A stretch of DNA of 64,000 nucleotides from Isoetes taiwanensis. Taxonomy: Eukaryota; Streptophyta; Lycopodiopsida; Isoetales; Isoetaceae. The DNA lies in the NCBI GenBank assembly GCA_021234155.1, contig JAJEKV010000072.1, positions 6,367,676-6,431,675 of the forward strand. Reading direction: 5' to 3'. Within the stretch, counting starts at the first letter, position 1. Each line of letters opens with the position of its first letter. The notes below the pieces were generated by a model. That model was not told the origin of the DNA and ran no database searches. It saw nothing but the letters and a program-made list of their open reading frames with translations. Of this stretch, positions 9,644-53,677 are shown in pieces. A program made the position numbers and the translations under genes.

Positions 9644-11285
9644 TTATAAGGCACATCTCCACAATTGCTTCATAAACATGAGCAGGCTCAACTGCTTAGC
9701 AACAACTAAAAATGGTGTGTGCACAACTGGAATTATTTCAGATCTAGCTAATTTGTCCCTTAGCTTTCTAAGCCTCTCTTTAACCTTTTCTCGTGCATCC
9801 TTAATATTGGCATCCATCTGTCTTGTTTTCCCAAACAATTGAACATCAGTAAACTTGCATTTCCCATTCTGATCAAAGTACTTTGATCTGAACCTAGCAC
9901 TATGCTGCTCATATCTAATGTCACTCCTCTTTTGCAATTCCCTTTCCAATCTTGCATCTGCCCTTCTCTTCATGTCTTGCTGCCTTTTTCTCCAATTGTA
10001 TTTTCTTCCTATTCTCTACATGATTCTTTCTTGCCTTAGCTGCTTCCTTTTGTTTCTCATTAGCATCAATTCGAGCTGCAATCATTTCATCACTAGTCAC
10101 CATTAACCTGCATGCTAGCACCTCGGGAAGCTTGGATCTCCTAGCAACAATTGGTTGATGGCTGGCTTGCTTTGGGGCTGCTGCTGCTGCTGTAGAGACT
10201 GAAGTGGATGGTTGCATGTTCCCAACAGTGGCAAGTGGTTGGAGAATAGGTGTAATATGGGGTGGCATACATATGATTAGCATTGGTGCAGGAAGGGGGT
10301 GGCAGGCCAGCAGCTAGAATTTCTATTGCTACACCTTCATTTAAGAAGCCCGCAACAATATTAGATGTGGTCAATGCTTCACACAAGGATGTGGACACAA
10401 TAGTAGCCATGTCTTCTTTGCTAGGCTCCCCAAACTGTTGACCCCTCATGTAATGGCTCCTATTTCTTTTGAATCTAGTTTTGAAGGGAGAGAAACATGA
10501 CATGTCTAGAGGCTGTAATCTGTGAGAAGTGTGTGTAAGTAGCCTTAGAATATGTAAGCCTATGGTTTTGGCATGTTGAATGGCAGACAAGCTCACATGG
10601 GATCCATGGCATGGGATCCATGGCCATCACAAATTAGATGTGGATTATCAGAAGATATGCCACCATGGACATTGTTTTGAAAGTGTGCAAGCCAGCCATC
10701 AAACAATTCATTTGTAATCCATGCCTTTTTCTGGAAGGCCATGGCAGCTCTAGGTTCACATCCCAACATTAGATTTCTATCCCTCATCCTTTCACCTTTA
10801 AACACGTACAAATTAGGTAGCACATAACCTGCAGCAGATACACATGTGAGAACAATCAGCCACTCTCTATTCTTTGGTATAGTTTGAGTAGCATTTCTTG
10901 CTCCCCTCCTTGCCAAAATTCTCATACATGATCTGCTGCCAGCTTGTATTCTTGTCTCATCACAGTTCCAAATCTTTGGAGCAGTGAACTTAAATTCTGC
11001 TAGCAGCTTCTCTAAGGCACAGTAAAATGCCTCTAGATTATCTGAGTTCATGGCTTTAACCCGCTGAATTTCTACACATTAGGCAGACCTAAGGCTTAGC
11101 TCTGGATGCCTATTTTTGAAGCCTTTCCACCATCCCTTACCGGGCAAGCCATCTTTAAAACCAGTGTTCCTTTTGATGGCCATCTCACTTACCCTCTCCC
11201 TCAGCAGCTCCAATGTGACACCTCTCCCTTCATCAGACAGGAGCTTGCTATTCATGTCAAAGTGTGTTGAGCAACATGGCAACAT
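9644..11285 (-). pseudogene. Tigger/pogo-type (Tc1/mariner superfamily) transposase, decayed
   Basis: The N-terminal part (11285-11079) reads GFKDGLPGKGWWKGFKNRHP, matching the CENP-B/Tc5-like helix-turn-helix. It continues in frame, after one TAA, into a DDE_1 catalytic domain with WNCDETRIQ (first Asp), LICDGHGSH (second Asp) and HTSHRLQPLD (third Asp). The C-terminal third is Lys/Glu/Arg-rich and probably coiled coil. Disabling changes are the TAA near 11084, a 14-bp tandem duplication at 10596-10623 that shifts the frame just after the second Asp, and further frameshifts near 10290 and 9970. Terminal repeats were not found. Such transposases move by cut and paste into TA sites; this copy is dead. 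Confidence 0.88.
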
Positions 11286-13561: not shown

Positions 13562-14239
13562 GCAGGTTTCCCCAACCATGAAGAAGGGCCTCATCATGTC
13601 ATTATCTTCATGCTCCAAGATGTGGCAATGCCAAACATAACCTGGACCAACAGTTGGGTCAAAAGGGTATTGGGAGCCATTCTAGGTAATAAAACTGATG
13701 AAAACTCTGGTAACATTTCGAGGCATTGCCCTCACTGTATCTTTCCAGCCAATCTCATCTACTCCGGGCGCAACCGGCGGCCCTGTGAAGCAGCTGCTTG
13801 GCTCGCCATAAGGAGCTTGGATTAAACAGGAGTTATTCTGGTAGGTTGTCACATTGAATGGCTGAAAATTGAGCACCTGGAATTGCACCAAATGAATATG
13901 CATAGGATGAGCGTCTGCTGTCAGATTGATCATGCTCCATATTTCTGTAGTATTTTTTGAGTGGAAAATGTATCAGCATGATCATGGAAACCTTTATTGT
14001 CAATTGAAAGTCCTAATGATTGTCCCTGAGCTGTGCTGTTTTCATTTAATGTAAAATAACGTGTTAGAATGGGCTGGCCTGAGATATTTCCACATGATGG
14101 AATGGATTTGAGATCAATATCTCTCCTAGATATATTAGATGCAACAACATGGAATTTCATCACCATTTCTGTTCCTCCAGATGGAACGTCACCGCTAGGA
14201 AATGGAGCAGGGGCAAAATTCATCAACAAGATGTCGGTG
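13562..14239 (-). pseudogene. Truncated copy of the LPR1/CotA-like multicopper oxidase
   Basis: This is near-identical to the C-terminal part of the intact gene at 51867-52560, including HPMHIHLVQF and the type 1 copper end [13 protein letters not shown]. It is disabled by a one-base change of run length near 13935-13950 that shifts frame between STQ and the following INLTADAH segment, and by CAG to TAG near 13684. Homology stops abruptly at about 14239, where 'tatcaacaatatgtcggttc' begins. Signal peptide, first intron and half of the copper ligands are missing. Both copies have the same orientation, 38 kb apart. High similarity suggests recent duplication. Confidence 0.88.
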
Positions 14240-15771
14240 TATCAACAATATGTCGGTTCATCAACAATATGCATCAGCTCAAAACCAGGAATACCTTAAA
14301 AAAGGAGGAATTACTATATTCTCAACAATGTCCAACAACTTGTTCCAGCCTTGTGTCCTAACGTCATTTAAGGATCCACCATGTAAAAAACACTTTCTTC
14401 ATGGTTTGTTGTCTAAAAATGGTGGTCATAGTGTAAGTGTGTCCTAACATTGTAATTGTTCCCAGACAATAAAAAAAATGGCACTTAAATTGTGCCATGG
14501 ATAGATGAATGTCATTGGCATTGTAATAGAAATTCTAGCCCACATATGCTTCGAAAAATGTACAATTATGGGCGACAACATTGTTGGGGAAGGCCACAAT
14601 AACATGGAATATGATTTAGACCTTGAGAGGCACCATAAAACCACGTTATTCCATGTTCTTATCTATCGCTTTCTTAACAATGTTGTCATGATCTGCAACA
14701 TAGTTCTCATGACAAATAAGAACTACTACTAAAGTCAGAAAAATGATTCCTGAGTGTTTTGATATGTACCAACTCATATTATCACTGTGACTTGATTTTC
14801 CAAAAGCTTTAGAATAAATGGGATGTCCAAGAAAAAAAGAACATAAACAGATTTGCATAAATGTGATGGATATGAACCATGAAGTCACCTCTAGTTCTAT
14901 TCAAATGAAGTAAAAAAGCTACTTAGTTGCCTGACATCAATAGTTATAGCATCTTGCATAGTTGTATCATGTATAGAAGCAGCAGAAAAGAGCAAATAGA
15001 AATTAGTATTGAAAGCTTATCGAGACATGCTTTTAGGAATCAATTTGAGACTAAGTAACCACAATGAAATGAGGACTTACAAACATAAAAGGAAAACCCA
15101 TTACCTGCAGAATGGCTAAGCAACAGTTTCTGGATCACAAATGCACCATTTAAAGCAAAGATCACAGTTTCTGAGAGAGACTCACCTCATTACTAATCTT
15201 GAATTCTAACAAAATAATGTCAATTGGATGTCAACATTGCAACAGATCAAAGGCAGCTATAACGTTGACAATTGTGGCCAAAGACCTTTAAGCTATATAC
15301 CACTTCAATAAAATGCCAGAAGCTGCCAGTATGTCTTTCTAAGTTGAATATATGAATATCTGGTGCTATTGAATACAAATGTAATTTGATATTCTTACCT
15401 CATCGCACATTTGGTTATCATGGTATCTGCTGAAAGAATATGTAGGAAAATATGTAGATCACATGCCTTGGATCTTTTTCTCTTAAAGGAACTCATGAAA
15501 ATTTGAGCTTTGAATACTCTCCACCATTCTAGATTTCATAAAATAACCTGCAAAGCCATCTTCAGTGATGGAACACCACCAGCCAGCCTGTTAAGGAAAA
15601 GAGAATTTGTATAGAAAACAATACAAAAAACATATAATACATGACTTATTGAGGTGCATAAGGAATATAAAGTAAGATTGAGAAGGATCCTAAAGTGAGC
15701 AAAATTAAACACATTGCAAAAAATGAAAACCCAAGAAATAAAACTTTGGCACATACTGCACAATGATGTAA
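14240..15771. other. Gene-free stretch between oxidase pseudogene and transposon
   Basis: No protein-like ORF or RNA gene is seen. Open frames near 14505 and 15536 have no recognisable features. The segment ends at the TTAA bordering the large transposon. Confidence 0.45.
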
Positions 15772-15775
15772 TTAA

Positions 15776-15798
15776 CAAGGTTGCATTTGAAACGGGAG
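15776..15798 (+). repeat. Left terminal inverted repeat of the transposon
   Basis: It starts CAAGGTTGCATTTGAAACGG. Immediately inside, 15786-15799 and 15808-15821 (ACTCCCGTTTCAAA) form a 14-bp perfect inverted repeat, so the left end itself folds into a hairpin. TTAA precedes at 15772-15775. Confidence 0.82.
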
Positions 15799-15956
15799 TG
15801 TTGCACAACTCCCGTTTCAAAGATTCCCTCAAAAAAACATGGCATCCTCTCAGAAATGAACTTTTTGGCCGAGTCAAAGGATTTTACGAGGTTAATTTTT
15901 TTTTCTTGCTTTTTAACCTCTCAGCAAGTGTACATTTCATTTGATGAAATATCATG

Positions 15957-16255
15957 GCCAAAAACTGCAAAATTTACAGCTGACTATGCAATACATGAAA
16001 TGAAGACAACAAAAACATCTTAGTTTAAATGAATTAATAATAGTACATTAATTAGAAATTTTAAATACATCAGTTTTGAAGGCAAAATTATTTGAACACT
16101 AGAATAGTCTGTCAGCTGTTAGTGGAAAAGGGCCAAATTTACAGTTGATTGTGTAGTGTAGACAAGCAAGACTAAGAAAATAAGAAAATTGATGGGAATC
16201 AATAATATTAATAATGAATAAATATTTCAGTATCAGTTTTAGAAGATGCCAATCT
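15957..16255. repeat. Diverged direct repeat inside the left end of the transposon
   Basis: About 15957-16093 and 16125-16255 share 'caaatttacag' / 'aaaatttacag', 'gaataataat'-type AT runs and 'cagttttgaag' / 'cagttttagaag' in the same order. Similarity is low. The stretch lies downstream of the methyltransferase gene end and has no coding features. Confidence 0.4.
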
Positions 16256-16277
16256 GAAAAATATTTCTCACAAGGAG

Positions 16278-16951
16278 TCAAAGATCAACTTCGTAGTCCT
16301 CCTCATGGTGTGTGCTTGTAGTTGCAACGTCTTCCTTAACAGGCTTCTCTTGCTGAGGTGATTTAACTTTTTCCTTGGTAGTGTTGTCTTCTGTTTCCAC
16401 TACTAGAGCCACTTCCTTCAGCTCTGCAAAAGTGACCTCATCCTCTGTGGAGCTAGTAAATGGAGGCTGTATTTCGGACGATGTCATTTTGGCAAAATCA
16501 GATGAGGATTTGGCACCTAGCTCTTGATTCTCGTCTGGTAAGCTAGGTAGTGCAGCCAATCTCATCTTAATAAAATTCACGGCCTCCTTGTCTATATCCG
16601 TTTTTTTGCTACGGTTTCGCCTTTTTAAGTGCTTTGCGGGCAATGGTTGATTACGGGCCGAAAGCATCAAGTATTCAAGTCTCCTTGGCGTGAAAACATG
16701 TCAATAAGCATGGTTGATTTCTTTTCAGTCGGCTCCAGTAGGCATTAGAGGGGCTTCCCCATAAGATAGTGATTGACAATTCTACCTGCGCTTGTTGCTT
16801 GGGTCTTGTGATATATGGTTATGATGTATTTCAATACAAGCCATATGTGTTGGAAACTCTAACACATTAGAAAAATCCCAAAAGCATCAATGGACATGTT
16901 GAAGTGCTCCATTGTTCTGAAGTTATTAGAAAAATGCCGTCGAAGCTCAGT
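16278..16951 (-). pseudogene. Disrupted C-terminal end of the ParB-methyltransferase gene
   Basis: Downstream of the TAA at 16954-16952 the minus strand still encodes recognisable methyltransferase pieces in shifting frames. There is an EPTEKKSTMLIDMFSRQGDL segment like the (N)EKP helix before the AdoMet site, then LDAFGP-stop-STIARKALKKAKP, corresponding to motif I (usually LDPFxGSGTT), then KKTDIDKEAVNFIKMRL, corresponding to the end of the Rossmann-like fold. The last 130 codons (16670-16278) are open, acidic and Ser/Thr-rich and end in EEDYEVDL. At least three stops and one or two frameshifts separate these pieces, so the protein as encoded would lack its cofactor site unless undetected splicing removes them. 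Confidence 0.65.
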
Positions 16952-19944
16952 TTAAAAAGCTGATGGTGAGGCCACATGAAGATATTCCACTTTGCTTAAC
17001 AATCTAGGGCCTCCAGCATGGTAATTTATATTGGTTTTGTACCTTTGGGAGAGAAGTGTAGTTAGCAATCTAGCAATTGATAAATACGTTTACTATTCCA
17101 GAATAGCAAAGGAAAGCAGAAGTATTCCAGAATAAGTTCTCACCAGACCAAATTCTCGCCCCCGCTTGGAGGGGATCCAAAATGATTCTTGAAGCTTCGC
17201 TTCCACCATTCCGCCTTGCATGCTAGAATGGAACACCACCGACCTCCGCTTAGCGCCGTTGTAATTTGTTTTAGACCATCAATAAAAGCATTGAACTCGG
17301 AGTTCCTAAATGGTAGGTCGTCATAACGGATGTCCTTGATCTTAAACCCGTACGGTATATCAGCAATGATCAGGGTAAAATTCTGGGGCTTAATGCTTCC
17401 CACCAACTTAGTGCAGTCACCTTGAACAACAGAAAACAAATTGTCCTGATCGAACAATGTAAACTTTTCAAACTCGGACGGTTCAACCGACAACCGCCTT
17501 CTGTCAGCCAAGGTGCTTTCCTCACGAGCAAGCTTTAGAAGGTGCATGAAACCTTCAGGAAGGTCTTTGTTTTTCTTTTTGTTCTGCTTTTGCAAATGAA
17601 GTTAAGTTGTGTACAAATAGTTGAAACAAACGAAGGTCCAAATGGTGAAGTATTATACCCATCCTTCAAAATTAGGAGCGTATTGTACAATGCGCTCGTC
17701 TGAAGTTGCCATAGGGTACAGCTCCTTACACCTTTCCCAGATTTCCACATTTAACTGCTCCATCAAGCATGTTTGGCATGCAATGACGTTCTTTTGGCTA
17801 ACAAACAGAAAATATTAAGTACATTACTTATTCCGGAATACAAAACAGATAAGGAATCCGAAAGTATGAAGCACGAGACATGAAGGCTTACTTGTGCAGT
17901 TCCTTTGACATCTCTTCTAAGGTAAACTCCTTGTCCACTACTTTCTGGAGTAACCTTTCTAGGATGGTTGTGTCCGTGAATCCCTGCAGCTCCCTCCGTT
18001 TGCGGATGGTCATTTCTTTTTTTGGCACATCTGTGCCCTTTTTCTTCTCTGTTACTTTACCTTTGCTCTTTAATTCCCCTCTTTCAAAAGCTGTAAATAT
18101 TTCGTTTTGCAGGTCCCATATCTACAGCACAACAACATATTGTAAGTTACACTGGAGAAAATCTTTTAATAATGAGCTACTATAAACATGAAGCAAAGGC
18201 CAAAGTGTATTCCGGAATACACTTCGGCCAGACACCAAAGGCCAAAGTGTATTCCGGAATACACTTCGGCCAGACACTGAATGCCAAAGTGTATTCCGGA
18301 ATACACTTTTGGCCTGACATTAAAGTGCGAGGACTATTCCAGAATACAGAAGCGCTTACTCTGCCATCCCTGAAAGCAAGTTGGAACCAATTATCGTGGC
18401 TGATGAGAGAGTGGCTCTTGCTGGCTTCATCGTACTTTAGACAGCACTCTATTGCGCACGCCTCCTTAAGCTTCAAAGATGGCCCTGGCTTCTTAAGATC
18501 TTCTCCATATTTTTCTTTGAATATCAAGTACTCTCTGTGCATGAATCTGATTGTATCGACAAAACTCATTTTGAGTTTGTACTCGTTATCTGCATTGTGT
18601 GTGTTGGCCACTATTTTTGCCTCTTCGTCAGTCGGGCCACAATACACCGCACAGAGGACGGAGAAGTATCTTGGATTTTGCTTTTCTTTAAAGAGTTGCC
18701 TGCGAGCTTTGAAGCTATGGTTTCCACCCAGCACATAATGTGTGTAGTGATCTGCACACTCTCTGTCATAATTTGCCAGGTCCATGCACTGGCTTCTGTC
18801 GACAAGCACAACTATTGGAGCAGCAAGTGCATTTGGGTTACTCCTTATCCTGTCTTTCAAGTTTCTGACGTGATCTGCATAAATTTTTCTCACCTGGAGT
18901 GGTCTCTCTCCTGTGACAGGAAAATAAATCACTCCTTGAACATATTTATTTTTATTTATTTCTTCCATCCGTTCTGCCGTCTTGTCTATCTTTTTTTCTT
19001 TAATTGCAACCCCTGGGGCCTTGCCCTTCCCCTTTGTTTTTTTTCCTATTTCCTGGGGTGCATCTTCAATAGCAAGTACCGCTGTCTTTCTTTTCTTGGG
19101 CTCCTTGGCAGCCACAGTTTGTCTTTGCTTCTTTGGTGGTGGTGGTGGGGTTGCTTCAAGTTCGGACTCAGCAGAATTTGCATCGTCCTCCTTACTCCCA
19201 GTTTGGCTGCTGCTTTCACCCCCACCTTCTTCTTCTGCTTCAGAAGCACTGTAGTCCAGTGCTTCACTTCTGCTGCTTGATACCGTCTTAAGGATTGTTG
19301 ACAATGCCAGCTTATTTATATAGTGGGCAATGTAACTGTAAAGCCGTGTAGGCTGCACGTTGGCTAGCTTAAAGTAGGCTACATCAAGAACAATGTAGCC
19401 TTGTGACGTCTTAAATGAAAGCCTTGGCTGTTGCTTGGCCTGCTCAGCAACTGACTCCACGTGCTGTATGGATCCCATGCACACACACTCAGACTCGTCG
19501 TGCCGTTTCTGCCCTGGGCTGTGACAGACATACAGGAAAGTGACATTGCTGTACTTTCCTGCGAAACCTCTCGTGACGTACCACTGGGTCTAAAAGTTCT
19601 CGTATATTTGTGGCTCAGTGGTCTCTTGTTCCGTTTCAGGCGCGGGTTTCGTGCTCTTGAGCTTGATGGTCCTTCTGGGTTTTGGAACACCATGTTCCTG
19701 CCTGCAACATCACAGTAACTAACTGTTTTAGTTAAAGCAAAGTGAACTAGAAAATGTATTCCGGAATAACATTGTCTAAATTCTACTGCTAAAGCGCTTA
19801 AAAATGCACTAAATTTAATGTTTTTGTAGCAAAACTTTTTTGAACTGAAGGCCAAAGTGTATTCCGGAATACACTTTGGCCTCTACCTAAACAACAATTC
19901 TAAAATATGCCCGTACATTGTACTTTTACCGCTCACCTCTCCAT
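16952..19944 (-). CDS. ParB-like / DNA methyltransferase fusion protein, six-exon model
   Basis: Exon model on the minus strand: 19944-19937, 19701-18360, 18121-17892, 17797-17659, 17583-17144, 17042-16952. All introns are GT-AG and all phases agree. The start ATGGAGAG|GTGAGC gives MERQEHG. Residues about 155-250 are acidic then Pro/Lys-rich and probably disordered. Residues about 265-345 resemble a ParB/sulfiredoxin fold: GERPLQVRKIYADHV, a PIVVLVD strand and VLGGNHSFKARR. Residues about 620-735 form the N-terminal half of a beta-class N6/N4 DNA methyltransferase: VVQGDCTKLV, motif IV IIADIPYG near 646-652, then ENLVWYKTN across the last splice. ParB plus this methyltransferase type is a known bacterial and phage fusion. 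Faults are an in-frame TAG at 19592-19590 and TAA at 16954-16952. A role in modifying or binding DNA is inferred. Confidence 0.72.
17093..17134. repeat. Two TATTCCAGAATA palindromes in intron 5
   Basis: TATTCCAGAATA cores lie at 17094-17105 and 17123-17134, each one base from the perfect TATTCCGGAATA. They sit inside the 101-bp intron 17143-17043 of the ParB-methyltransferase gene. Confidence 0.75.
17829..17840. repeat. TATTCCGGAATA palindrome in intron 3
   Basis: A perfect 12-bp palindrome inside the 94-bp intron 17891-17798 of the ParB-methyltransferase gene. It lacks the longer GTG...CAC arms of the strongest copies. Confidence 0.8.
18198..18346. repeat. Phased array of four palindromes in intron 2 (42-bp spacing)
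   Basis: Three copies of the 18-bp palindrome GTGTATTCCGGAATACAC start at 18205, 18247 and 18289, exactly 42 bp apart, each within a longer inverted repeat with GCCAAA / GGC arms. A fourth, degenerate core (TATTCCAGAATA, 18335-18346) follows 43 bp after the third core. The array lies wholly inside the 238-bp intron 18359-18122. On the coding strand it is also open in frame, which makes a repetitive KCIPEYTLAF tail if the intron is not removed. Confidence 0.9.
19757..19768. repeat. TATTCCGGAATA palindrome in intron 1
   Basis: A perfect 12-bp core in the 235-bp first intron (19936-19702) of the ParB-methyltransferase gene, 89 bp from the 32-bp palindrome in the same intron. Confidence 0.8.
19850..19881. 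repeat. Perfect 32-bp palindrome in intron 1
   Basis: The half-site GGCCAAAGTGTATTCC is followed directly by its exact reverse complement. It is the most complete copy of the family and lies about 60 bp downstream of the start codon of the ParB-methyltransferase gene, inside the first intron. It could be a dimer binding site or extrude a cruciform. Confidence 0.92.
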
Positions 19945-20223
19945 GCTGCGTGCTAAAGTATTGTAGAAGGTTTCGAAGGCGCTAGATTGGAGCGGCTGGA
20001 GCTTCGAAACTGGAATACACGACTAAGTGCCAAAAAATCTCTTTTTAAAGGTCTGCTTCAGACACATGTCCATTTCTATGTATACCGGAATATGTTTGAT
20101 TCAAAATGTGTGCTAACATGTATTCCAGAATAGCAGACTTCTCCTTGGCTTGACACTTCGTATTCTCGAATAGCAAACTTGCACAAGTTGCTTCCGTATC
20201 TCTCCTAGTTGAAGTTATTGAAG
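19945..20223. promoter_or_regulatory. Shared divergent promoter region of the transposon genes
   Basis: This stretch of about 280 bp separates the ATG of the ParB-methyltransferase gene (19944, minus) from the first ATG of the plus-strand ORF (20224). It contains three degenerate palindromes: TATACCGGAATA at 20081-20092, TATTCCAGAATA at 20121-20132 and TATTCTCGAATA at 20161-20172. No clear TATA box stands out. The position suggests the palindromes could serve as operators for both genes; that is inference. Confidence 0.55.
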
Positions 20224-20592
20224 ATGGTTAATCGCATCCAGAACAGACTTCCACCACCTTTTGTTGCACCGAGTTCCTCTACTTCAGAGGAAATGCCCGA
20301 TGAGCATGTGTTTTTGCCTGGTGCCCACGCTTCCTCATCTCCTGCCTCTACAGCATCCTTGTTACTCCTTGATGATTCTCCAAGTCCATCACATAGTAGA
20401 TTGCCACCACCTTTCCAACCCTCCCCGAGCCCTTTCAAGAGTAGGTTGCCTCCTCCCTTCGTTCCATCTCCACATGTACACAGTAGGCTATCACCTCCTT
20501 TTGTACCATCACCAGAAGCTGCATATGCTGCAGCACAACAGATGTTTCTAAAAAGACTGCCCCCAGTATTTGTAGCTTCTCCTCTAACATGA
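20224..20592 (+). CDS. Proline-rich ORF, likely 5' exon of the transposase gene
   Basis: From ATG 20224 the frame reads MVNRIQNRLPPPFVAPSS and holds repeated SRLPPPFVPSP-like units (about five, degenerate), ending at TGA 20590-20592. After the stop the same frame still looks coding for about 90 codons (a SPPPPINVVTHGFAEF segment) with one more TAA. It may be an N-terminal disordered exon of the downstream gene, with the stop avoided by splicing or caused by decay. Alternatively it is a separate small gene. Proline-rich repeats give no function. Confidence 0.4.
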   Translation: MVNRIQNRLPPPFVAPSSSTSEEMPDEHVFLPGAHASSSPASTASLLLLDDSPSPSHSRLPPPFQPSPSPFKSRLPPPFVPSPHVHSRLSPPFVPSPEAAYAAAQQMFLKRLPPVFVASPLT

Positions 20593-20891
20593 ACAAGTAC
20601 AAGGTCTGCAACACACCCACAAGAATGTGAAATTCTCCATCACTTTTCTCACCATGACTTGTGCACAAATGAAGACGATGTTGTAGGGTCCCCACCTCCT
20701 CCCATAAATGTTGTGACACATGGGTTTGCAGAATTTCAAACAGCAATAAGATAAATGTTTGACAAGACACCTAGTCAACACAATCAAGCAACAACATCCT
20801 ACGGCCCATCACCTACATTTAACACTGTCCCTCCGAATTTTTCGGGTACTGTGTCACGTGGTTTATTTTCCTAGAGGAGGTCATTCCTAGA

Positions 20892-23396
20892 GTGGAACTC
20901 TCATCAGAGGATAAAGACCCTGACAAGGAACAACGAGATTACATGTTCTCTAACCAATCTTCAAAGAAATTCAAAGTAGATTTCAGCTTGAGAGCATGTT
21001 CTTCCGTAAGAAGAAGAAATCTGATGGACGAGCAGAAAATAAGAAAAATTCTCAGAACTACATGCTGTTCATTGGGATGCATTAGCAAATTCAACGTGGC
21101 TAAACTTCGTGCAATTAGAGACCATTACAGTTCTATGACAATTTCAGAACAGAATGCCTACTTGGCTTATCATGTAAGACCAGACAGGCACAACTTCTTG
21201 CACTATATCAATCGGCAAGAAGTGTGTCAAAAATGCTTCATGGTCGTGCACCGCCTGGGTTCCTCCAGAATGTCTCGAATACATAAACGATTAGACAAAA
21301 GCCCTAGCATTGATGACCACTATGGGCCTGGAAAAATTGTAACAATGCATGCCCTAGCTGTTGTGGCATGGATGGAGAAATACTTCAGAGAAACGTGTGA
21401 AAAATTGCCAAACAGCAATATGTATCACTTGACAGATAACATCACAAAAAAAGATGTTTTCAAAGAATACAAAGAGACATGCAGTCAGTCTCAGCATATC
21501 TCTTATTCACATTTCACTAGATTGTGGAAAACTGAATTTGGTCTTGTAAAAATTCCTCGAAGACACAGAATGTCTGTGTGCTCAACGTGTGCAGAACTAA
21601 AGAGTCAGAAAGAAACTGCAAGGACAGAGCTCGAAAAAAGTAAGTTCAAGTTCTTCATTCTCGTACTTGCATCATGTAATTGTTTTGACCTGCTTCCTTC
21701 AACAGACATTGTGCAACAAAAGCTTGCTAAACACCGTGACCAACAAGCAGCTGAGAGAAGGAAGCTTGCTAAGCATAGGAAAAAAGCTCTTGAGCGTCCA
21801 TTTGAGTACATGTCCGTTGTGATTGATGGAATGGATCAGAAAAAGACGACTCTACCTCATTTCTTGAACATTCCAAAAGATGTGCCAGAAGAATGCTTTG
21901 TCAAGGTCCACCTCGTAGGGGCCATGGACTTCAATGGGAGTCTAAAGTGCAAAGTCTTTTTAACATATCCTAATTTGCATGGTGATCCAAATCTCACAAT
22001 TACAATTCTTAACAAGGTTCTTTGTGAGCAACAACAGTTACCACCAGTGCTCTACCTGCAACTTGACAACACTACCAGGGAGAACAAGAATCAAACACTC
22101 TTTGCTTACTGTGCCATGCTAGTGGAGCTGGAGATTTTCAGAAAAATAAAGCTTGGATTCTTACTAGTAGGGCATACACACGATCAAATAGATCAGATGT
22201 TCAGCAGGTTTTCAGTGCGTCTCAGAAGAAAAAAAGCTTTTTGTCTTCCCACTTTGGTTCGTATCATTGAAGACTCTTACACTCCCATGCCAGTAGTTGA
22301 GCTTCTAAAGGAGACTGCCGACTTCAGGGAATTTGTTTTCTCTCAATGTGCAAACAGAGAACAAGCTGTGAACAAGCTAAATGACATTACGTTTCAACAT
22401 CACATCAAATTCTACTTGAAGAATGGAGAGAGCCTTTTGCAGGGAAAGAAGTACACTACAACTAAAGGGTGGAGTCCGGTAGAGGGATTACGCTTCCTTA
22501 AATCTGTTCCAGACACTAGTTCCATGGAACGTGCTGAGCAGCTTCCTCTAAAAAATCCAAAAGTGTCAAAGCAGCAAAAAAGTACCCCAGTCACTTCCTT
22601 GAAATCCATTGAAAATAGAATTTCCACGGGTTTTAAGTACTTCACTGAAGAAGATCAAATGTGGTGGAGAGGCTTCTTTCTAGAACAAAAGACTATGATT
22701 CAGAACCTAGCTCTGAGGCAGTTGCAAGAACCTTTTAAGTGGTCTAATGCTTTCCACCAACCGCAGGACCAGGCAGGTCAAAGCATTGCTGCAGTAGCAG
22801 TTGCAGTACATGAAGATGAGGACCGGGTCATGTACCTCGGACCAAGATGCAGGAATGAACCTACAGGTAATGTCACAGAAATTACCAAAGGTATGTTGAT
22901 TGCTCTTCCGACTGAGGAGGATGACAAGAGGAGACATTTTTGGATAGCCAAAGTACTTGACACAATCAAAGAGGAAGGCCTGGTAACAAAACTCAAGATT
23001 TATTGGCTTGCTACACGTTCAGAAAATGCTTTTGAAGGTAGGTATGAGCTAGAAATGAGAAGTCAAGGAAAGGGCAAAAAGGCCAAGAAAGTTGGATGCA
23101 GGGATGAGCTAGACTTACGACAAGTGAGTATTTTGTGCTATGATTTCAAATTGAAATCAGACAATCGTTTACGCCAGAAAACAATCAACTTGCTTAAGAA
23201 GGCTTGTAACTATGAAGAAGAAGATGAAGAAGAGGTTGGGAATGCTTCACCGTCTGTTGATAGTGATGAGGAAGATAACTCAAGCACTTCCTCAAGTGAC
23301 AGTGAAAGAAGTGAAACTGACGAAGATGGCATAAACGAGCATGAAGATGTCTTAGATCCCTCTCTTATCACTCCTCACACTTTTGCACATAACTGA
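20892..23396 (+). CDS. DUF7869-type protein, probable transposase
   Basis: An open frame of more than 830 codons. An in-frame 66-bp intron (21640-21705, GTAAGT...CAACAG) is likely, giving about 810 residues. The N-terminal part has Cys pairs (TCCSLGC, VCQKC, VCSTCAEL) suggesting zinc binding. The central part has DGMDQ, then QLDNTTRENKN, then VGHTHDQIDQMFSR. I recall this order from proteins annotated DUF7869 in plants, oomycetes and animals, and it resembles an RNase H/DDE layout. Near the C-terminus, MLIALPTEEDDKRRHFWIAKVL resembles the usual tail domain, followed by an acidic Ser-rich end. No ATG lies in frame between the TAA at 20820 and 20943, so the 5' end must be spliced (acceptors at 20874 or 20890) or start at ATG 20943. 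It is the longest intact ORF in the window. Confidence 0.82.
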   Translation: MELSSEDKDPDKEQRDYMFSNQSSKKFKVDFSLRACSSVRRRNLMDEQKIRKILRTTCCSLGCISKFNVAKLRAIRDHYSSMTISEQNAYLAYHVRPDRHNFLHYINRQEVCQKCFMVVHRLGSSRMSRIHKRLDKSPSIDDHYGPGKIVTMHALAVVAWMEKYFRETCEKLPNSNMYHLTDNITKKDVFKEYKETCSQSQHISYSHFTRLWKTEFGLVKIPRRHRMSVCSTCAELKSQKETARTELEKSKFKFFILVLASCNCFDLLPSTDIVQQKLAKHRDQQAAERRKLAKHRKKALERPFEYMSVVIDGMDQKKTTLPHFLNIPKDVPEECFVKVHLVGAMDFNGSLKCKVFLTYPNLHGDPNLTITILNKVLCEQQQLPPVLYLQLDNTTRENKNQTLFAYCAMLVELEIFRKIKLGFLLVGHTHDQIDQMFSRFSVRLRRKKAFCLPTLVRIIEDSYTPMPVVELLKETADFREFVFSQCANREQAVNKLNDITFQHHIKFYLKNGESLLQGKKYTTTKGWSPVEGLRFLKSVPDTSSMERAEQLPLKNPKVSKQQKSTPVTSLKSIENRISTGFKYFTEEDQMWWRGFFLEQKTMIQNLALRQLQEPFKWSNAFHQPQDQAGQSIAAVAVAVHEDEDRVMYLGPRCRNEPTGNVTEITKGMLIALPTEEDDKRRHFWIAKVLDTIKEEGLVTKLKIYWLATRSENAFEGRYELEMRSQGKGKKAKKVGCRDELDLRQVSILCYDFKLKSDNRLRQKTINLLKKACNYEEEDEEEVGNASPSVDSDEEDNSSTSSSDSERSETDEDGINEHEDVLDPSLITPHTFAHN

Positions 23397-23726
23397 GTCT
23401 TAGGAAAAAAGAAGTAAATTTTGAATGTGAATATGAAGATTTTATCTTCAATTTTGAAAATACTACTATTTCAGCTGTAAACTTCACTTCAATTTTTGGT
23501 TAAAATTTGTGTTCTCTTAAATTAGAGGTTTGCTCCAAAAAGACAATTTAGGTAAATTATAATTGCTAAAAAAAGTGTCACTTTGACATAGTCAATTCTC
23601 TGTTTGGAGAAAAAACTTGGTGATTTTAGGGGGGTCAAAATACATTTTTATGCCCTTTTTTTTTAACACCTCATTTTAGCCATTTTTTGCAGAAAAATAG
23701 GGAATCTTCAAGGAATATTCCTTTTG

Positions 23727-23749
23727 CTCCCGTTTCAAATGCAATCTTG
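23727..23749 (-). repeat. Right terminal inverted repeat of the transposon
   Basis: Read inward from 23749 on the minus strand it starts CAAGATTGCATTTGAAACGG, differing from the left repeat at one base. TTAA follows outside at 23750-23753. Just inside, AAGGAATATTCCTT forms a palindrome in the position where the left end carries its own different hairpin. Confidence 0.82.
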
Positions 23750-23753
23750 TTAA

Positions 23754-26264
23754 TTGAACAAATTGATGCCTATTATGCCTATTAATAACGTAGACAATAT
23801 TATCATAGTTCGCACCATGGAAAATGGCATTTCGACTGCAGTAGAGAATCTAGCAAGCAAGAGTTTTTTGATACTCATCTTCTTATTGAAGCCCATAAAT
23901 CCTGGACTGCATTGAATGGGGAAAAAAATGACATGTTGCAGATAGCAGATTAAAAACATGCATGAGTAGCAGAATTGAATGTCAAAAGAGGACCTGAAAA
24001 GCAGAAATACTCATAAATTTTAAAGATAAAATCTGTGGAACAGAACTAGAAATGTGACACTTTCTAGATATAAGCTCAGATCCAAAACTGAGTTTGATCC
24101 TAAAATAGGCGAAACATCACCAAGAAGCAGAATGTAAGCTCCGTAAAAAATACCAAAACATACTGGTCAAATAAGGCCCTAATCACAAATAAGTCATGAC
24201 TTGACAACAAATTACCTTTCTAGAGAAGATTCCAAGTTGTCACACCACATGTCTATGGATAAGCCTCTGCCTTGAATGCCTAAAGAAAATGACAATGATA
24301 CTATGAATTCATGGTGTCACAAACTGGCATCATAGATTAGCACTATTAGAATGATTTACCATGCGACCAAGAACCCAACCTTCAGTTTGAAGAATTGTTT
24401 GGGTGCTTGCCCTATGTAACCATCCACAAATCAAGAATGATAATGCTGATTTGAAGCTAAAATTGCTGATGGATGGCTTCTGTATACAAATAACCTCTCT
24501 GTCTTTTCATTTGCCTGGTTGCAGTGAAAATTGCTAAGCCCTGCACATAATGCACACATAAACCTGTGAAGAAACTCGGATAAACACCTGCAAAAGACTG
24601 AAACTATAAATCACCTACAAATCTAGAAAACTCCCAACTTTATTCTTTCTTTCTTGTCTGTGTCGATTACGAACAAAGCTCATGCATTTTGCTGATTTGC
24701 ATGTTGCAGGCCCTTGCATGCCATTTGAAGGTAACATTCAACATTCTCAACATTATCAACATTCAACATTCTATTCCTTCCAAGTGATTTAGCGCTAACG
24801 CAACTATTGCAGCTGTATACTCTGATCTTTCACAGCCAGCCAACATCTAAAGATGATTCAATCTCGATTTTATGGTCAATACCTTGTCATAGCATTTTAC
24901 AAATGATAGTCCAAGTGATTTACCCCTTTTTCTCTTATTCTTCAGCCTATAATCTTAGTCCTCTAGGCGACTTGAGCATAGGTTTAAGGAAAACTGGCAT
25001 CAACATGAATGTTAGTAGAATGGCCATCCTAGATTTGGCCATGGCCGTTCCAAAACTCCACTGCAAAATCTAAACGTCACATTTAGAGGAGGGAATCGAT
25101 CCTGATGAGTAGCTGAACTCAAATGGAATAATAATTAAAGGAAAATAATGTCCCCAAAATTACCCGTGCCAGAATTACAAATTTTCTGATCCCAAAATTT
25201 TGCATTTTTGCTGGATTTTAATGTCTTCAAGCAGCCGAAAAAAAGAGGACACCCACCCCTAAAAACATTAAGTAGATAAACAATAATAGGATCATTCATG
25301 CAACTTATTAAGAAGGGGTTAAACCCCCTTGCAAGTCAGGGCTCAAATTTGACGGCTTTCACGCCTGTTTTTGGCATTTTTGCCTGTCAAAACAAGCAAA
25401 AATAAAATTTGTATTGCAAATGAAAGGTAGCCAATGACCAAATGCCTGTCATGCAGAAGGTCCACCAAAATACATATTTGTCATTTGAAAAGCTAGAAAT
25501 TTAAATTCTCCTGTCATTTTTTTTTATTTTCTTATCTTTTTATAAATAAAATGATATAATATATAGGCCCATATACAAAAATGTATGATCCATCCAAACA
25601 ACCTTTAATAAATTAGACACCATCCAACCATTGAAAAAGGGGAATACTAGCTTGCATCAGCCAGGGAATTGCCAAGGAATCGGCCAGGGGCCATTCTTGG
25701 GCTTATACTTGGGCTTATGCTTGGCAAACAACACTGCTATTCTTGTGCTTACACTTGGGCTCTTTGATTGTTCTGCATCAAGACTTTTGAAACCACCACT
25801 TCTACAAATCTATCTCATCTATTCATTCATGGAGCAAGATAAAGACAACGTAAGTAAGTTCAAATTAGATCATTTGCTCTACATTATTGTGATTTCTTGC
25901 TTTTTCGTGCTCCTTGCATTTTCGTAGTTTTCTATTTTTTATTATTGCGGTGGCTTCTTTAAGCTAAAAAAAGAAGGAAAGCCAATCAATGTAGATCTGT
26001 GCTTTCTTTTTGCAAATTCTCTAATAGCATAGTTGCAAGCTCAGACTCTCAAACGCAGCAGCAGCCCGACATAGTTCTTGAGGAGACCATAGAAATTATA
26101 GAAGGTTCTTGTAACGTACAGAAGAACATACATATTGTTGATGTACATTTAAAACGGTTATATTATTACGAGTTTATAATAGACTTTATAATTGTTTTTT
26201 TTTTTTTTTACATAAAAAATAGTTTCTGTCATTTGGGATTTTTGGCTTGCATTTGAAAGGTTAA
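23754..26264. other. Gene-free stretch right of the transposon
   Basis: No gene is recognised. A 30-bp piece of the duplicated oxidase flank recurs near 25285-25314. 'gcctgtcatgcagaagg' near 25445 recurs near 26707. Open frames at 24807 and 25631 are hydrophobic or unremarkable and lack family features. Confidence 0.45.
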
Positions 26265-27327: not shown

Positions 27328-27792
27328 TCAACAATGATCAGAGAAGTATGAGTTGAAATAGGCATTAAAGGCATCGGTGGAGCCAAAGAAGTATTGATCA
27401 AGGGGCCAATTATTGTAATAACAGAGTCTGAACATGTCCTTGTCCTCCAGGAGAATCAGCAATGATCCATATAGATCAGCCAGTAGCTTATGACTGTAGT
27501 ATAGTGTTCTGTATCTTGATAGTTGAGCCTCTGTGAGAATGAGATTATTGGCTGAAAGAAATTTCCACAAGCAATGGATCTGGACAACCTCCCTGCAAAA
27601 TATACTTGCCCACAGATCTTCACTCTCCTTCTTGTACCTCATATGTCCTCTTTTCATCAGAAATGACTCCATTGAGGTGGCTATGTCATTTTTCATGACT
27701 TGATCCTGAGATGTCTGGCTAAATGGTGAGTTGCTGGTATCAAATTTCTTACTTCCTTCTCCTCGTAGAAAATTAAGATACTCTAGGATCAT
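27328..27792 (-). CDS. Small downstream ORF of the AT-rich L1
   Basis: 154 codons from ATG 27792 overlapping the end of ORF2 by 20 bases in another frame. The protein is charged with aromatic residues (KRGHMRYKKESEDLWASIF) and ends NSYFSDHC. I recognise no domain. It could be a true third ORF, a frameshifted continuation of ORF2, or chance. Its length in AT-rich DNA argues mildly against chance. Confidence 0.4.
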   Translation of the reverse strand: MILEYLNFLRGEGSKKFDTSNSPFSQTSQDQVMKNDIATSMESFLMKRGHMRYKKESEDLWASIFCREVVQIHCLWKFLSANNLILTEAQLSRYRTLYYSHKLLADLYGSLLILLEDKDMFRLCYYNNWPLDQYFFGSTDAFNAYFNSYFSDHC

Positions 27793-30700
27793 CAGAGAGA
27801 AATAAGTTAGAATCTACAACATTTAAATTTGAAGCAAACAAATCATAATGACCCCTATACAAACCATAGTCCTCCCATTTCCTGTCAAAATTAGCTCCAA
27901 ATTTCTTTTTATGTGCTGTAGCAATGGTCTCAAAATCAAACTGAAAGTGCAATTTAATCCAGAATATGGACACATTTTTTTTACCATATAACATCCGATT
28001 CCTTGCTTTCCAAATGTTCCAAAGGGCAATATTAATAATTGAATTGACAAATTTATCATCATTATTCATAAGGGACATAAGATCCCCATTAATTAGAATC
28101 CCAAATTTGTCAGAGAACCAAGACCAGAAACCATTCAGGGTGCTACAAAAGAAAATATGGCACATGTCCTCAGGCCTGTTACAAGCTAATGGGCAATTAG
28201 TAGAAATATTGGGGTTTCTTCTAGACATGGAGACCAGATTATTCAAACTACCATTAGCAATGAGCCAGATGAAGTATGAGATTTTTGGAGGACAATAAGA
28301 ATGCCAGACATTATGAAATATTCTCTTGAGTTGATCATAGCTAATGGACCATTTCACCATAGCTTTACATCCATCAATATTGGAGGTCATAGCATTGTAA
28401 ACATTTTTCACTTTATAATCTCCTTTTTCATTTATCCTCCAGTCACTTTTTCCGGAGTTGACAGATAAGTTTGAGAGAAAGGGTTTAATGATAGCATAAA
28501 TTTTCTTATCAGATGAAGTGCCCCTGATAATACCTTTCAGTCTAGTCCAAGACATGATTCTTCCATTTACAAACATATCTCTGATATAAACTACACCAGC
28601 CTCATGCCATTTCTTATGAATCCTTGGGTGCTTGATAGCAAGTACAGGAGAATTAGGCTCAGCCATAATGGGATTCCAAAAGATTGGCACATCAGCATGA
28701 AGCTCATCTCTTTTAATAAAATGGAAATTAGGAGAGATAGCATTCCAAGCTTTGATGAGATTTTGCATAAGAGGGGAGATGCTGGGGCCTGGTTTCAGTT
28801 GACTGAATGCAGAATGGGGAAGCAGATGCTGAACTGAGGGGTGACCACAGGGGTGACTTTGAGAAATCCAATATCTGATAAAGATATAAGCAGGAGATTG
28901 ATTCCCATGAATTGCTTTCCAAATAAGCTTGCCAGCAAGAGATTGAGCTTGAATAAAAAGATTCTTGCAACCTAAACCTCCAGATACTTTAGACTTGCAT
29001 ATGGAATTCCAATTAACCAAGTGACTTCCCTTCCAGATGAAATTTCTAATTATCTTCTCGAGCTCCAAATAAACATACTTTGGAGCTACAAGAACTGTGG
29101 AAAAGTAGACATGAGAACTGGCAAGAACAGCATTGGCAATGATAGTTCTACCTGCAAGAGAGAGATAATTCCCATAGTTGTTCAACTTCTTTTTGATTCT
29201 CAAAATAATAGGGTCCCAAAGACCTTTGATGCTGTGGTTCATAGCTATAGGTAATCCCAATAATTTAGTTGCCTGATTAATAGGAAGGACGTTAATACCA
29301 GCTAGAACTGGAATACTGAGATCACCAATGATCATACTCTTATTCAAGTTCAAATGGATACCAGAGGCAGCAGAAAATTGTCCCACAATCTTAAGAAAGA
29401 GATTGATATTTTGAAGATCAGCATCAAGGAAGGAGAAAGTATCATCAGCATATTGAAGAATGGATATACTATCATCAGAATTTGGAAGATTTAAACCTTT
29501 CAACTGAGCAGTATTCTGATAATGCAGAATGACCCTGGTTAAGAGTTCAGCAACCACAAGGAAAAGGTTAGGGGCCAGGGGACATCCTTGTCTAACTCCA
29601 CATGAAAGAGGAAAGAAGCCAGAAAGAACACCATTAATGAGAACAGCAGAATTGGACCTAGAGTTTAAGCCATGAATTAGATTCATGAGTTTGGGATGGA
29701 ACCCAAGTTTAGACATGGCAAAATCTAAGAAATCCCACCTTACTGAATCAAAAGCCCTTTTAAAATCCAGCTTGAGAAGAATGCAGTTTTGATTTGAGAT
29801 CTTGTTCCAATGCAAACCTTCCATAGCAGCCACATAATTATCTAAGATATACCTATTTGGAAGAAAAGCTGATTGATTATGGCTAATGTTCCTTTGAAGG
29901 AAGCTTTTGATTCTCAGGGCAATGATCTTAGCACAAATCTTGTATGTGGTATTTGTGAGAGAGATGGGCCTCCAGTCCTGAAACTTAGAAGGATGATCTA
30001 CCTTAGGAATCAGAGAGATAAATCCACTAGAGATAGAAGGATGTAGATGATTATCATTCCAGAAGGCATGGACAAGGGAAGTAACATCAGTTTTGAGTAT
30101 ATCCCAGAACTTGATGTAGAATTCTGCTGGTAGGCCATCTGGTCCAGGAGATTTGCCTTTGCTGAAGGAATTGAGAATTTCATAAATCTCATTTTGAGAT
30201 GGAATAGCAGTAATAGCTTCATCCATTATTTCACTAGGATTTGGAAGAATGGAATCCACAGTGGAGATAAACTCATTGGCTTCAGTAGCCATGTTGGGGG
30301 GAATTGGCTTGTCACTAAAGATATTCATATAACTGCTCTTGAAGAAATTTGCAATCTCAGAATGTGAACTATAAATATTACCATGATCATCAACAGTCTC
30401 AGCAATGGAGTTTCTAAGAACCCTACTTTTTGCAACTCTGAAGAAGAATTTTGAAGAGCCAGAGTCCATATCATTAGTATACTTAATTTTACATCTAATA
30501 GCTGAACCCTTAGCTTCCATTTCCTCAATATTCTTAATTCTTCTCTCTAAGATATCCTCCCCTACATGAAGATTATAGTTAGAGGGATCATTCTGTAGAA
30601 GAGACCTTATATTCTTCATATACACTAGGAGCTGATTTTTTTCTCTACTTCTCTCCTCTTTGATGATTTTAGACTAATTTTTAATCCACCCTTTGATTTG

Positions 30701-51866: not shown

Positions 51867-53677
51867 TTAGCTAGTAAAAATGGAGGTTTCCCCAACCACA
51901 AAGAAGGGCCTCATCATGTCATTATCTTCATGCTCCAAGATGTGGCAATGCCAAACATAACCTGGACCAACAGTTGGGTCAAAAGGGTATTGGGAGCCAT
52001 TCTGGGTAGTAAAACTGATGAAAATTCTGGTAACATTTCCAGGCATTGCCCTCACTGTATCTTTCCAGCCAATCTCATCTACTCCGGGCGCAACCGGCGG
52101 CCCTGTGAAGCAGCTGCTTGGCTCGCCATAAGGAGCTTGGATTGAACAGGAGTTATTCTGGTAGCTTGTCACATTGAACGGCTGAAAATTGAGCACCTGG
52201 AATTGCACCAAATGAATATGCATAGGATGAGCGTCTGCTGTCGGATTGATCATGCTCCATATTTCTGTAGTATTTTGGGTGGGAAATGTGTCAGCAGGAT
52301 CATGGAAACCTTTATTGTCAATTGAAAGTCCTATTGATTGTCCCTGAGCTGTGGTGTTTTCATTTAATGTGAAATAACGTGTTAGAATGGGCTGGCCTGA
52401 GACATTTCCACATGATGGAATGGATTTGAGATCAATATCTCTTCTAGATATATTAGATGCAACAACATGGAATTTCATCACCATTTCTGTTCCTCCAGAT
52501 GGAACATCACCGCCAGGAAATGGAGCAGGGGCAGAATTCATTAACAATATGTCTGTGCCAGGAGGAACCAAAGAAAAATCTACCAAAACATCAACTCTGT
52601 AGGCAGGAGCAAGCTCGAGGGAGGAAGCATTTACAGGAGAAGAAAGGTACCCACCATCTGAACCAATTTTGGTGAAAAAAAGATCTGAAGAGTTGAAGAA
52701 AAGGGTGTAGAAGCGAGAATTGGAAGCATCGAGAATTCTAAAACGATAAGTTGTATTCTGAACGTTAAGATAAGGCCAGGCCATGCCATTGACGAGAATT
52801 GTATCGCCAAAAAACTCAGGGCACCAGTTGGGATGGACGTCAGGAACGAGGCCAACGTTGGGGTAGTTAAAGGAACCATTGGGGTAGAACTGGCGATCAG
52901 AGATGATTAAAGGAATTTGAAACTGGGCAGAGGGGAGGCCAAGTTGGGTTTCAAGGTGGGGTGACGTTAGGATATAAGCGCCTGCAAGGCCAGCATGAAC
53001 GTTTAGTCTGGTGATGCCAACAGCATGGTCATGGTACCACAACATGGTTGGACATTGAGAGTTGGGATAGTAATATAGTGGAGTGGACCAGGCCGGGCCG
53101 CGGTCGCCGAATTGCGTGAACCATGCATCAGGATTGCCATCTGATGTGCTTGGAACCTCTCCTCCATGCAGGTGCGTCACAGTAGGAATTCCACCATTTG
53201 GGGGATCTGCCCAATCAAGTGTTCTGTCCACTATGAACATGTGTTCCTCATCACTGATATTATTCTCCCAGCTAACCCATACTGGTTCAAACCTTTTAGC
53301 CACCAGCGTTGGCCCTGGAAATGTCGCAGTCTCCCAACTTGGACCATATGCATATAGTGGCGTTTCTGGCAGATCCCTGTGTAGCTTCTGCATCATCAAC
53401 ACACACAACATATATTAACTTAACATAAGTGTTACGTTTCTTCACAGATTTACCAAAGCAAAACTACACTTTTGGTTTTTCTTGCCTGTGTGATCTTATA
53501 CATGCCCATCCTAAAGGTTTCGTTGTATGAGAGAGTGATTGTCTGCATCACAGGCAGTGGATCCACGAATTTCTCGAGAAATGGAGAGGGTGTCATGTTT
53601 TGGCAGACAGATTGAGCATTTGCCAGCGTAACTGCTAGAATCAGAAAGTAATTTGCAGTCCATATGAAGAGTGCCAT
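51867..53677 (-). CDS. LPR1/CotA-like multicopper oxidase, secreted, intact
   Basis: Two exons (53677-53486 and 53387-51867) encode 570 residues. The 98-bp intron starts GCAAGA and ends CAG, a GC-AG intron, and splices KITQ to KLHRDLPETP in phase. The N-terminus has a signal peptide (FLILAVTLANA). All copper sites are present: HLHGG (His136, His138), WYHDH (183, 185), HPMHIH (451, 454, 456) and [13 protein letters not shown] (544-556) with Cys545 as type 1 ligand and Met555 axial. Many N-x-S/T sites suggest glycosylation. It resembles bacterial CotA/bilirubin oxidase and plant LPR1 ferroxidase more than laccase; oxidation of Fe(II) or phenolics in the wall is inferred. Paralogous 3' fragments lie at 11.9 and 13.6 kb. 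Confidence 0.93.

Follow-up and report, generated by a model that had tools for sequence, protein, structure and literature searches.

The window analysed here is a stretch of 64,000 nucleotides from Isoetes taiwanensis (assembly GCA_021234155.1, contig JAJEKV010000072.1, positions 6,367,676 to 6,431,675), and a DNA transposon with two facing genes lies within it. The right-hand gene encodes a DUF7869 protein, the presumed transposase, and the left-hand one encodes a ParB-like region joined to an N6/N4 DNA methyltransferase. Twelve copies of a palindrome with the common word TATTC-NN-GAATA are clustered in the introns of the latter gene and in the divergent region between the two, and their pattern across copies and relatives indicates that this element family may recognise itself by changeable address tags. 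The parts of the element are located as follows.

15774 to 23751: whole DNA transposon, flanked by the target-site duplication (TSD) AATT at 15770-15773 and 23752-23755
15774 to 15798, plus strand: left terminal inverted repeat (TIR)
23727 to 23751, minus strand: right TIR
20224 to 23396, plus strand: DUF7869 gene, presumed transposase, with an amino-terminal stretch at 20224-20592 and the main open stretch at 20823-23396
19937 to 19944, minus strand: ParB-methyltransferase gene, coding part of exon 1
18360 to 19701, minus strand: exon 2, ParB-like domain, with one in-frame stop in the window copy
17892 to 18121, minus strand: exon 3
17659 to 17797, minus strand: exon 4
17144 to 17583, minus strand: exon 5, with motif IV (DIPYG)
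16278 to 17042, minus strand: 3' part of the gene, with the motif I region broken by eye and the last open stretch at 16278-16700
17094 to 17105: palindrome TATTCCAGAATA, intron 5
17123 to 17134: palindrome TATTCCAGAATA, intron 5
17829 to 17840: palindrome TATTCCGGAATA, intron 3
18208 to 18219: palindrome of the intron 2 array, within an almost perfect 32-bp palindrome
18250 to 18261: palindrome of the intron 2 array, 42 bp after the preceding array site
18292 to 18303: palindrome of the intron 2 array, 42 bp after the preceding array site
18335 to 18346: palindrome at the donor end of intron 2, with counterparts in the host-genome regions L017, L024, L025 and L026
19757 to 19768: palindrome, intron 1, at a place common to 6/9 aligned and 12/14 sampled copies
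19860 to 19871: palindrome, intron 1, within a perfect 34-bp palindrome
20081 to 20092: palindrome with one base changed, divergent promoter region
20121 to 20132: palindrome, divergent promoter region
20161 to 20172: palindrome TATTCTCGAATA, divergent promoter region, about 60 bp upstream of the DUF7869 ATG

The ends of the element agree at 97% over 29 nt, with the duplicated AATT counted in, and matching flanks of 4 bp border each of the four copies whose two ends were both observed: AATT in the window, TTTA and ATAC in two short derivatives (L016 and L019) and CCAC in a further copy (L028). TSDs of 4 bp are characteristic of the Sola, Ginger, Kolobok and piggyBac superfamilies; none of the four observed here is TTAA. 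Close to the right end, at about 23712-23721, the sequence GGAATATTCC contains the half-words of the palindrome overlapping and in the opposite order. The DUF7869 protein matched PF25273 with an E-value of 4.8e-51 (173.5 bits, above the curated cut-off of 26), and its homologues comprised 124 matches, the named ones being in Ceratopteris, Adiantum, Riccia, Chara, lancelets, a coral and Cymbomonas. The conserved residues D335, D415, H453 and D457 suggest that it is a DDE-type transposase. The amino-terminal stretch of the gene is in a different frame from the main stretch, an intron likely lies between them, and we claim no damage to this gene.

The five introns predicted in the ParB-methyltransferase gene (19936-19702, 18359-18122, 17891-17798, 17658-17584 and 17143-17043) all have GT-AG borders. 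By eye, each of introns 1, 3, 4 and 5 could be paired with an intron in the genes of relatives from a metagenome-assembled genome (MAG), whereas intron 2 is absent from these genes, the coding sequence being continuous there. Since the relatives read straight through at this place, intron 2 is supported as an intron of the window gene, and, together with its four palindromes, it represents a difference between lineages. The frame of exon 2 remains open into intron 2 up to position 18180. In the window copy the methyltransferase gene has suffered damage: exon 2 carries a stop, and the motif I region is no longer readable by eye; motif I is present in the copies L025 and L028. The window exons, with motif IV in place and the motif I region broken, gave no match to PF01555 (N6_N4_Mtase), and the spliced protein of the relative L002 matched this family with an E-value of 2.5e-13 (50.9 bits, above the cut-off of 26.7). 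For the ParB-like domain the match was weak (TIGR03764, E-value of 0.0021, 17.8 bits, short of the curated cut-off of 143.75). Thus, of the ParB-methyltransferase label given to this gene in the original prediction, the methyltransferase half is clear in the relative, while the ParB half has weak matches only. No homologue of the ParB exon was found at E 0.001 among proteins of up to about 820 and 710 residues, a range that may miss longer full-length relatives. The window ParB-methyltransferase had no match in the genome contig collection, the viral contigs yielded no confirmed relative, and the window DNA had no match in the plasmid search. Among solved structures there was no useful match, at best weak ones.

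All twelve palindromic cores reported in the original prediction were found at their coordinates (12/12), and their confinement to introns 1, 2, 3 and 5 and the divergent region was confirmed: two lie in intron 1, four in intron 2, one in intron 3, two in intron 5 and three in the divergent region, with none in an exon and none in the 75-bp intron 4. Eleven are exact matches to TATTC-NN-GAATA, and the core at 20081, TATACCGGAATA, differs from it by a single base. No further exact match occurs in the whole window, for which the Markov expectation is 0.11, and the claim that no cores lie elsewhere was thereby borne out for exact matches; five one-mismatch look-alikes are present outside the element, a number close to the shuffle mean of 3.5. 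With at most one mismatch allowed, the window contained 17 matches, compared with 3.5 ± 1.8 in shuffled sequences, none of 100 shuffles reaching 17. When 5-base inverted half-sites were ranked at spacings of 0-6, TATTC at spacing 2 came first with 11 occurrences, followed by ATTCC at spacing 0 with 6, which is a sub-word inside the same sites. The outer TA of the core is as constant as the inner bases. In eight of the twelve sites the palindrome is limited approximately to the core, and the flanks of the eight without a long palindrome have a mean similarity of 0.33, compared with 0.31 for random pairs, the highest value being 0.55 for the pair 20121/20161. Intron 2 contains two identical 42-bp units, 18194-18235 and 18236-18277. 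Helical phasing of the sites was considered and is not claimed, because the intron 2 steps correspond to 4.0-4.1 turns but those in the promoter (3.8) and intron 5 (2.8) deviate from whole turns.

In the host genome (G000, a 1.66-Gb assembly of 1110 contigs, whose copies of the element were sampled in part), TATTC-NN-GAATA is far from uniform in frequency, occurring 15,160 times compared with 1,937 times for its reversed control. For the exact 12-mer TATTCCGGAATA the corresponding numbers were 4,830 and 65, and the version with a 3-bp spacer showed no genome excess (2,351 vs 2,377 in the control). Fourteen copies were sampled by protein, down a list of at least 104 matches to the ParB exon, and were examined over 1 kb beyond the exon. 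The palindromes had not been lost from any of them: each copy carried 3-11 sites (95 exact and 10 one-mismatch sites altogether), and none carried the spacer-3 form. The position of the sites was conserved as well: in 12 of the 14 copies, 164-169 bp separate the first site from the fetched end, and the corresponding distance in the window copy, 168 bp, falls within this range. Neighbouring sites were 41 or 42 bp apart in 27 of 81 cases.

A second set comprised fourteen regions (L015-L028) that surround the first 50 listed exact sites and were chosen for at least one exact site with a CG spacer. All fourteen contained pieces of the element, recognized by tblastn or by element ends, and three background stretches of 10 kb had no site. 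Of the 134 sites in these regions, 129 lay outside coding matches; the other five overlapped such matches through alignment read-through of intron 2 (L017, L024, L025, L026) or intron 5 (L015), and none was in a recognized exon. The TC spacer of the site at 20161 recurs at the same place in L015, L018 and L023. Many copies have open ParB exons. The short derivatives L016 (2361-6644, 4.3 kb) and L019 (4159-7936, 3.8 kb) have both ends and matching 4-bp duplications. Despite having only about 100 bases of recognized coding sequence, they retain 9 and 12 palindromes, respectively.

Comparison of copy pairs in three bins (at least 85%, 75-85% and below 75% identity) revealed mismatch rates of 0.023, 0.043 and 0.063 at the ten core bases, compared with 0.130, 0.195 and 0.257 in other non-coding DNA, 0.111, 0.179 and 0.243 at bases within 10 bp of the core, and 0.173, 0.259 and 0.330 in the 2-bp spacer, all derived from overlapping copy pairs that are not independent of one another. 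The core evolves under constraint, at a rate about four to six times lower than that of other non-coding DNA. By our own reasoning, the requirement for an intact site could account for a twofold reduction of the core rate, and the observed drop exceeds that. Counted without the intact-site condition, the words comprised 145 exact ones, 42 with one mismatch (about 13 by chance) and 92 with two (about 108 by chance). Synonymous differences from the window copy amounted to 0.57-0.94 in 28 of 34 aligned pieces; the ratio of nonsynonymous to synonymous rates was not used, because of saturation in most pairs and frame changes within some aligned pieces.

The spacer was CG in 57 and CA or TG in 72 of the 145 sites. 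This drift is suggestive of methylated cytosines that deaminate in the middle of the sites. The CpG value of the site zone was 0.151, compared with 0.090 in the rest of the element (p = 0.001), and that of the non-coding site zone was 0.135, compared with 0.042 in the element's other non-coding parts (p = 0.005). With the comparison to outside DNA described below, the CpG evidence for local protection by the sites, from two tests, is mixed.

A profile scan of genome contigs with the DUF7869 alignment revealed nine loci (L002-L010), eight of which (L002-L009) came from the MAG, labelled uncultured Trichormus sp. (CAKZGI01, run ERR2144891). They are probably contaminating DNA of the fern Azolla, since Azolla's cyanobiont belongs to the Trichormus group; a metagenome study of A. 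filiculoides has been published (PMC5901025), but the papers searched did not contain this run number. A collection of species-representative genomes thus seems to include a MAG with plant transposon DNA (L002-L009, L032 and L033), probably from the Azolla host. The remaining locus, L010 (3380-4240, on a contig of a Candidatus Paceibacterota MAG), holds a DUF7869 relative of 35% identity (E-value of 2e-13) and is perhaps another eukaryotic contaminant. A ParB-methyltransferase gene faces the DUF7869 gene in L002, L005, L006, L007 and L009, and no ParB match was found in L003, L004, L008 or L010.

TATTC-NN-GAATA did not occur in any of the nine loci. Seven of the eight MAG loci contained another palindrome instead, CGATRC-NNN-GYATCG, in 4, 2, 3, 15, 2, 10 and 2 exact copies from L002 to L008; neither L009 nor L010 had it, and L009 lacked its one-mismatch form as well. 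The whole 5.9-Mb MAG contained 43 such sites, compared with 0 for the reversed control: 36 lay on the six contigs with ParB exon 2 (L002, L005, L006, L007, L032 and L033), and the remaining 7 on L003, L004 and L008, which carry DUF7869, at the points where these contigs are cut. In the five loci with a visible exon 1 (L002, L005, L006, L007 and L008, the last of which begins inside intron 1), all exact sites were within intron 1, whose limits were set by hand. The 3-bp spacers were variable, with 14 kinds among 38 MAG sites. The word of the array differs between lineages at a matching place, while the gene order stays. A consensus of the half-sites revealed a possible frame, G-N-AT...ACTT outward from the dyad, common to both words, the outer ACTT being present in only four extended window sites.

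We consider it fairly probable that the palindromes act as operators bound by a dimeric protein of the element's own, most likely the ParB-methyltransferase, and that they serve self-recognition and either regulation or escape from silencing. They would be selected sites, in which the dimer would read TATTC on either side of a fixed 2-bp gap. The arrays, with 3-11 sites per 1 kb in sampled copies and often 41-42 bp between sites, would load the protein on the element's own non-coding DNA, and this loading would extend to shortened copies. The loaded protein could then regulate the divergent genes and mark the element, through base methylation or through exclusion of host silencing, and the related lineage would keep its array in the matching place with its other word. 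A dimeric DNA-binding protein is indicated by the fixed-gap inverted word with its variable centre, by the clustering of sites in non-coding DNA, and by their retention in L016 and L019. The ParB-methyltransferase is favoured as the reader because the array lies within its gene wherever that gene is readable, because the word is lineage-specific, and because of the likeness to the Arabidopsis protein VANC21 described below. As a bipartite word of 10 bp, the site looks more like the binding site of a dimer than like the target of a methyltransferase. More tentatively, a captured bacterial ParB-linked adenine or N4-cytosine methyltransferase could form a self-addressing epigenetic system in the plant transposon, in which the enzyme would occupy lineage-specific parS-like arrays within its introns and promoter and write a mark other than 5-methylcytosine that keeps the element active, with enzyme and array co-evolving such that each lineage would tag only itself.

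Several observations weigh against the operator interpretation. The ParB domain had no Pfam match and fell under every curated cut-off, both in the window exons and in the relative, and single-sequence structure models were poor (pLDDT of 41 for the ParB exon and 35 for the DUF7869 core) and were not used. The MAG locus L009 is without a site, though its 5' region seems to be lost, and the ParB genes of L003, L004 and L008, if present, would lie beyond the contig ends. The 41-42-bp spacing is partly a product of tandem duplication, and 6 of the 34 aligned pieces (in L018, L021 and L026) are lower in synonymous differences and unsaturated. The CpGs at the site centres are lost about as fast as CpGs elsewhere, leaving the silencing sites also suggested in the original prediction unsupported beyond the CG-to-CA/TG drift, and the CpG value of the non-coding site zone is not above that of the DNA outside (0.118, p = 0.58). 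Finally, the sequences do not discriminate between the ParB-methyltransferase and the DUF7869 protein as candidate binders.

First among the alternatives is binding of the palindromes by the DUF7869 protein or a transposition complex, for synapsis or for repression of transposition, which we regard as rather unlikely. In L016 and L019 the distance of the sites from the two ends is about 0.4-1.3 kb on one side and 0.5-0.8 kb on the other, which would suit such a role, as would the three sites that the window copy has upstream of its DUF7869 ATG. On three MAG contigs the array adjoins DUF7869 and no ParB exon 2 is visible, the contigs being cut there. However, the full-length window copy has no site near its ends, the sites spanning 17.09-20.17 kb of an element that extends over 15.77-23.75 kb; its TIRs lack TATTC-NN-GAATA, with only the overlapping half-words at the right end; and the exact sites of the five MAG loci with a visible exon 1 are confined to the first intron of the methyltransferase gene. 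Thus the earlier proposal, that the palindromes may be binding or methylation targets of the ParB-methyltransferase, or else transposase sites, is supported in part: the sites are enriched, retained and constrained at their cores, their binding or methylation by this enzyme is putative, and the transposase version keeps the modest probability just given.

Sites of a host transcription factor driving the element are very unlikely. A heat-shock factor, whose word is TTCnnGAA, or a GARP factor, whose word is GAATA, would be candidates, and TTCnnGAA is contained in 11 of the 12 cores, but the outer TA varies no more than the other core bases, the relatives carry a different word, and the first 50 listed exact sites were all in regions with the element. 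An RNA-level role, in which intron hairpins would affect splicing or feed small-RNA production, seems just as improbable. The RNA of intron 2 folds much better than its shuffles (z = -9.7), but the eight sites that are palindromic over about the core only would have neither the length nor the loop that a stable hairpin needs, the divergent promoter also holds sites, and the exact spacer length matters. A neutral short repeat spread by tandem duplication within the element, to which the identical 42-bp units and the recurrent 41-42-bp spacing could point, is scarcely credible, given the slow evolution of the cores beyond the twofold conditioning bound and the on average chance-level similarity of most flanks.

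If the ParB-methyltransferase does read the palindromes, this would be a case of convergent evolution of transposon self-tagging. The two lineages would provide natural pairs of protein and word for studying how DNA-binding specificity changes, and a direct test would become available for element-directed N6-methyladenine or N4-methylcytosine in plants. With sites in the thousands and numerous copies whose ParB exon is open, a single genome suffices to test the proposal.

The remainder of the window contains a multicopper oxidase frame with Pfam Cu-oxidase domains (51867-53414), and a similar truncated copy was seen by eye near the transposon (13930-14241). There is also a fragment of a DDE_1 transposase (10593-11078, E-value of 2e-8), and reverse transcriptase frames of the long interspersed nuclear element type were found at 27773-30673 (RVT_1 and zf-RVT), at 62688-63959 (RVT_1) and, by eye only, at 33334-34884. 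The zf-RVT domain and the named DUF7869 relatives would by themselves indicate a land plant as host, perhaps a fern or some other plant without seeds.

Among the listed results of the literature searches, none described a ParB-methyltransferase transposon in its title or the start of its abstract, and nothing was found under the name DUF7869. In bacteria, ParB binds clustered palindromic parS sites near its own gene. The element resembles this arrangement in having clustered palindromes near a gene for a ParB-like protein, and differs from it in its site, which is not parS, in its weak ParB match, in the methyltransferase joined to the ParB-like region, and in its plant host. The order of motifs, DIPYG (IV) followed by FSG[ST]G (I), is that of the beta class to which CcrM belongs. 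The methyltransferase part of L002 matched the CcrM model NF050803 with an E-value of 5.4e-13, but its score of 48.6 is far under the cut-off of 830, so the enzyme is not CcrM, from which the joined ParB-like region also sets it apart; against methyltransferases of Azospirillum plasmids, the relative's protein gave an E-value of 5e-11. CcrM methylates GANTC, which is contained in neither palindrome word. According to the available part of one report, eukaryotic retrotransposons have captured cytosine methyltransferases (PMC5890265); those elements, like the present one, are transposable and carry their own DNA methyltransferase, whereas here the enzyme is of a different class, the element is a DNA transposon and a motif array is present.

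The closest parallel is with the VANDAL elements of Arabidopsis. The TSD of 4 bp found here differs from the 9 bp of Mutator elements. In the available parts of two reports (PMC5735166, PMC10398659), VANC21 binds short motifs located in introns and upstream stretches of the element that encodes it, VANDAL21, and these motifs differ between related VANDAL elements. As there, the present element has dense arrays of a short motif in its own non-coding DNA, including introns and the region upstream of the presumed transposase gene, the arrays have grown by tandem repeats, and the word shifts between related element families. Two features of the VANDAL pattern were observed, the arrays in the regions sampled and the lineage-specific word in the change from TATTC-NN-GAATA to CGATRC-NNN-GYATCG. 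In contrast, the VANC21 motif as described there, YAGTATTAY, is not palindromic and is arrayed in one orientation, whereas the word found here is a palindrome with a fixed gap. The partner proteins, a ParB-like N6/N4 methyltransferase and a DUF7869 protein, appear to be of other families than those of VANDAL, as judged without direct sequence comparison to VANA or VANC. Binding and anti-silencing are described for VANDAL21 and VANC21, and may by analogy also occur in the present element, which could work like VANDAL self-recognition without our claiming VANDAL membership for it. Taken together, these comparisons indicate an anatomy similar to that of VANDAL, here assembled from other proteins in a land-plant transposon of another kind, a bacterial-type N6/N4 methyltransferase being the likely reader.

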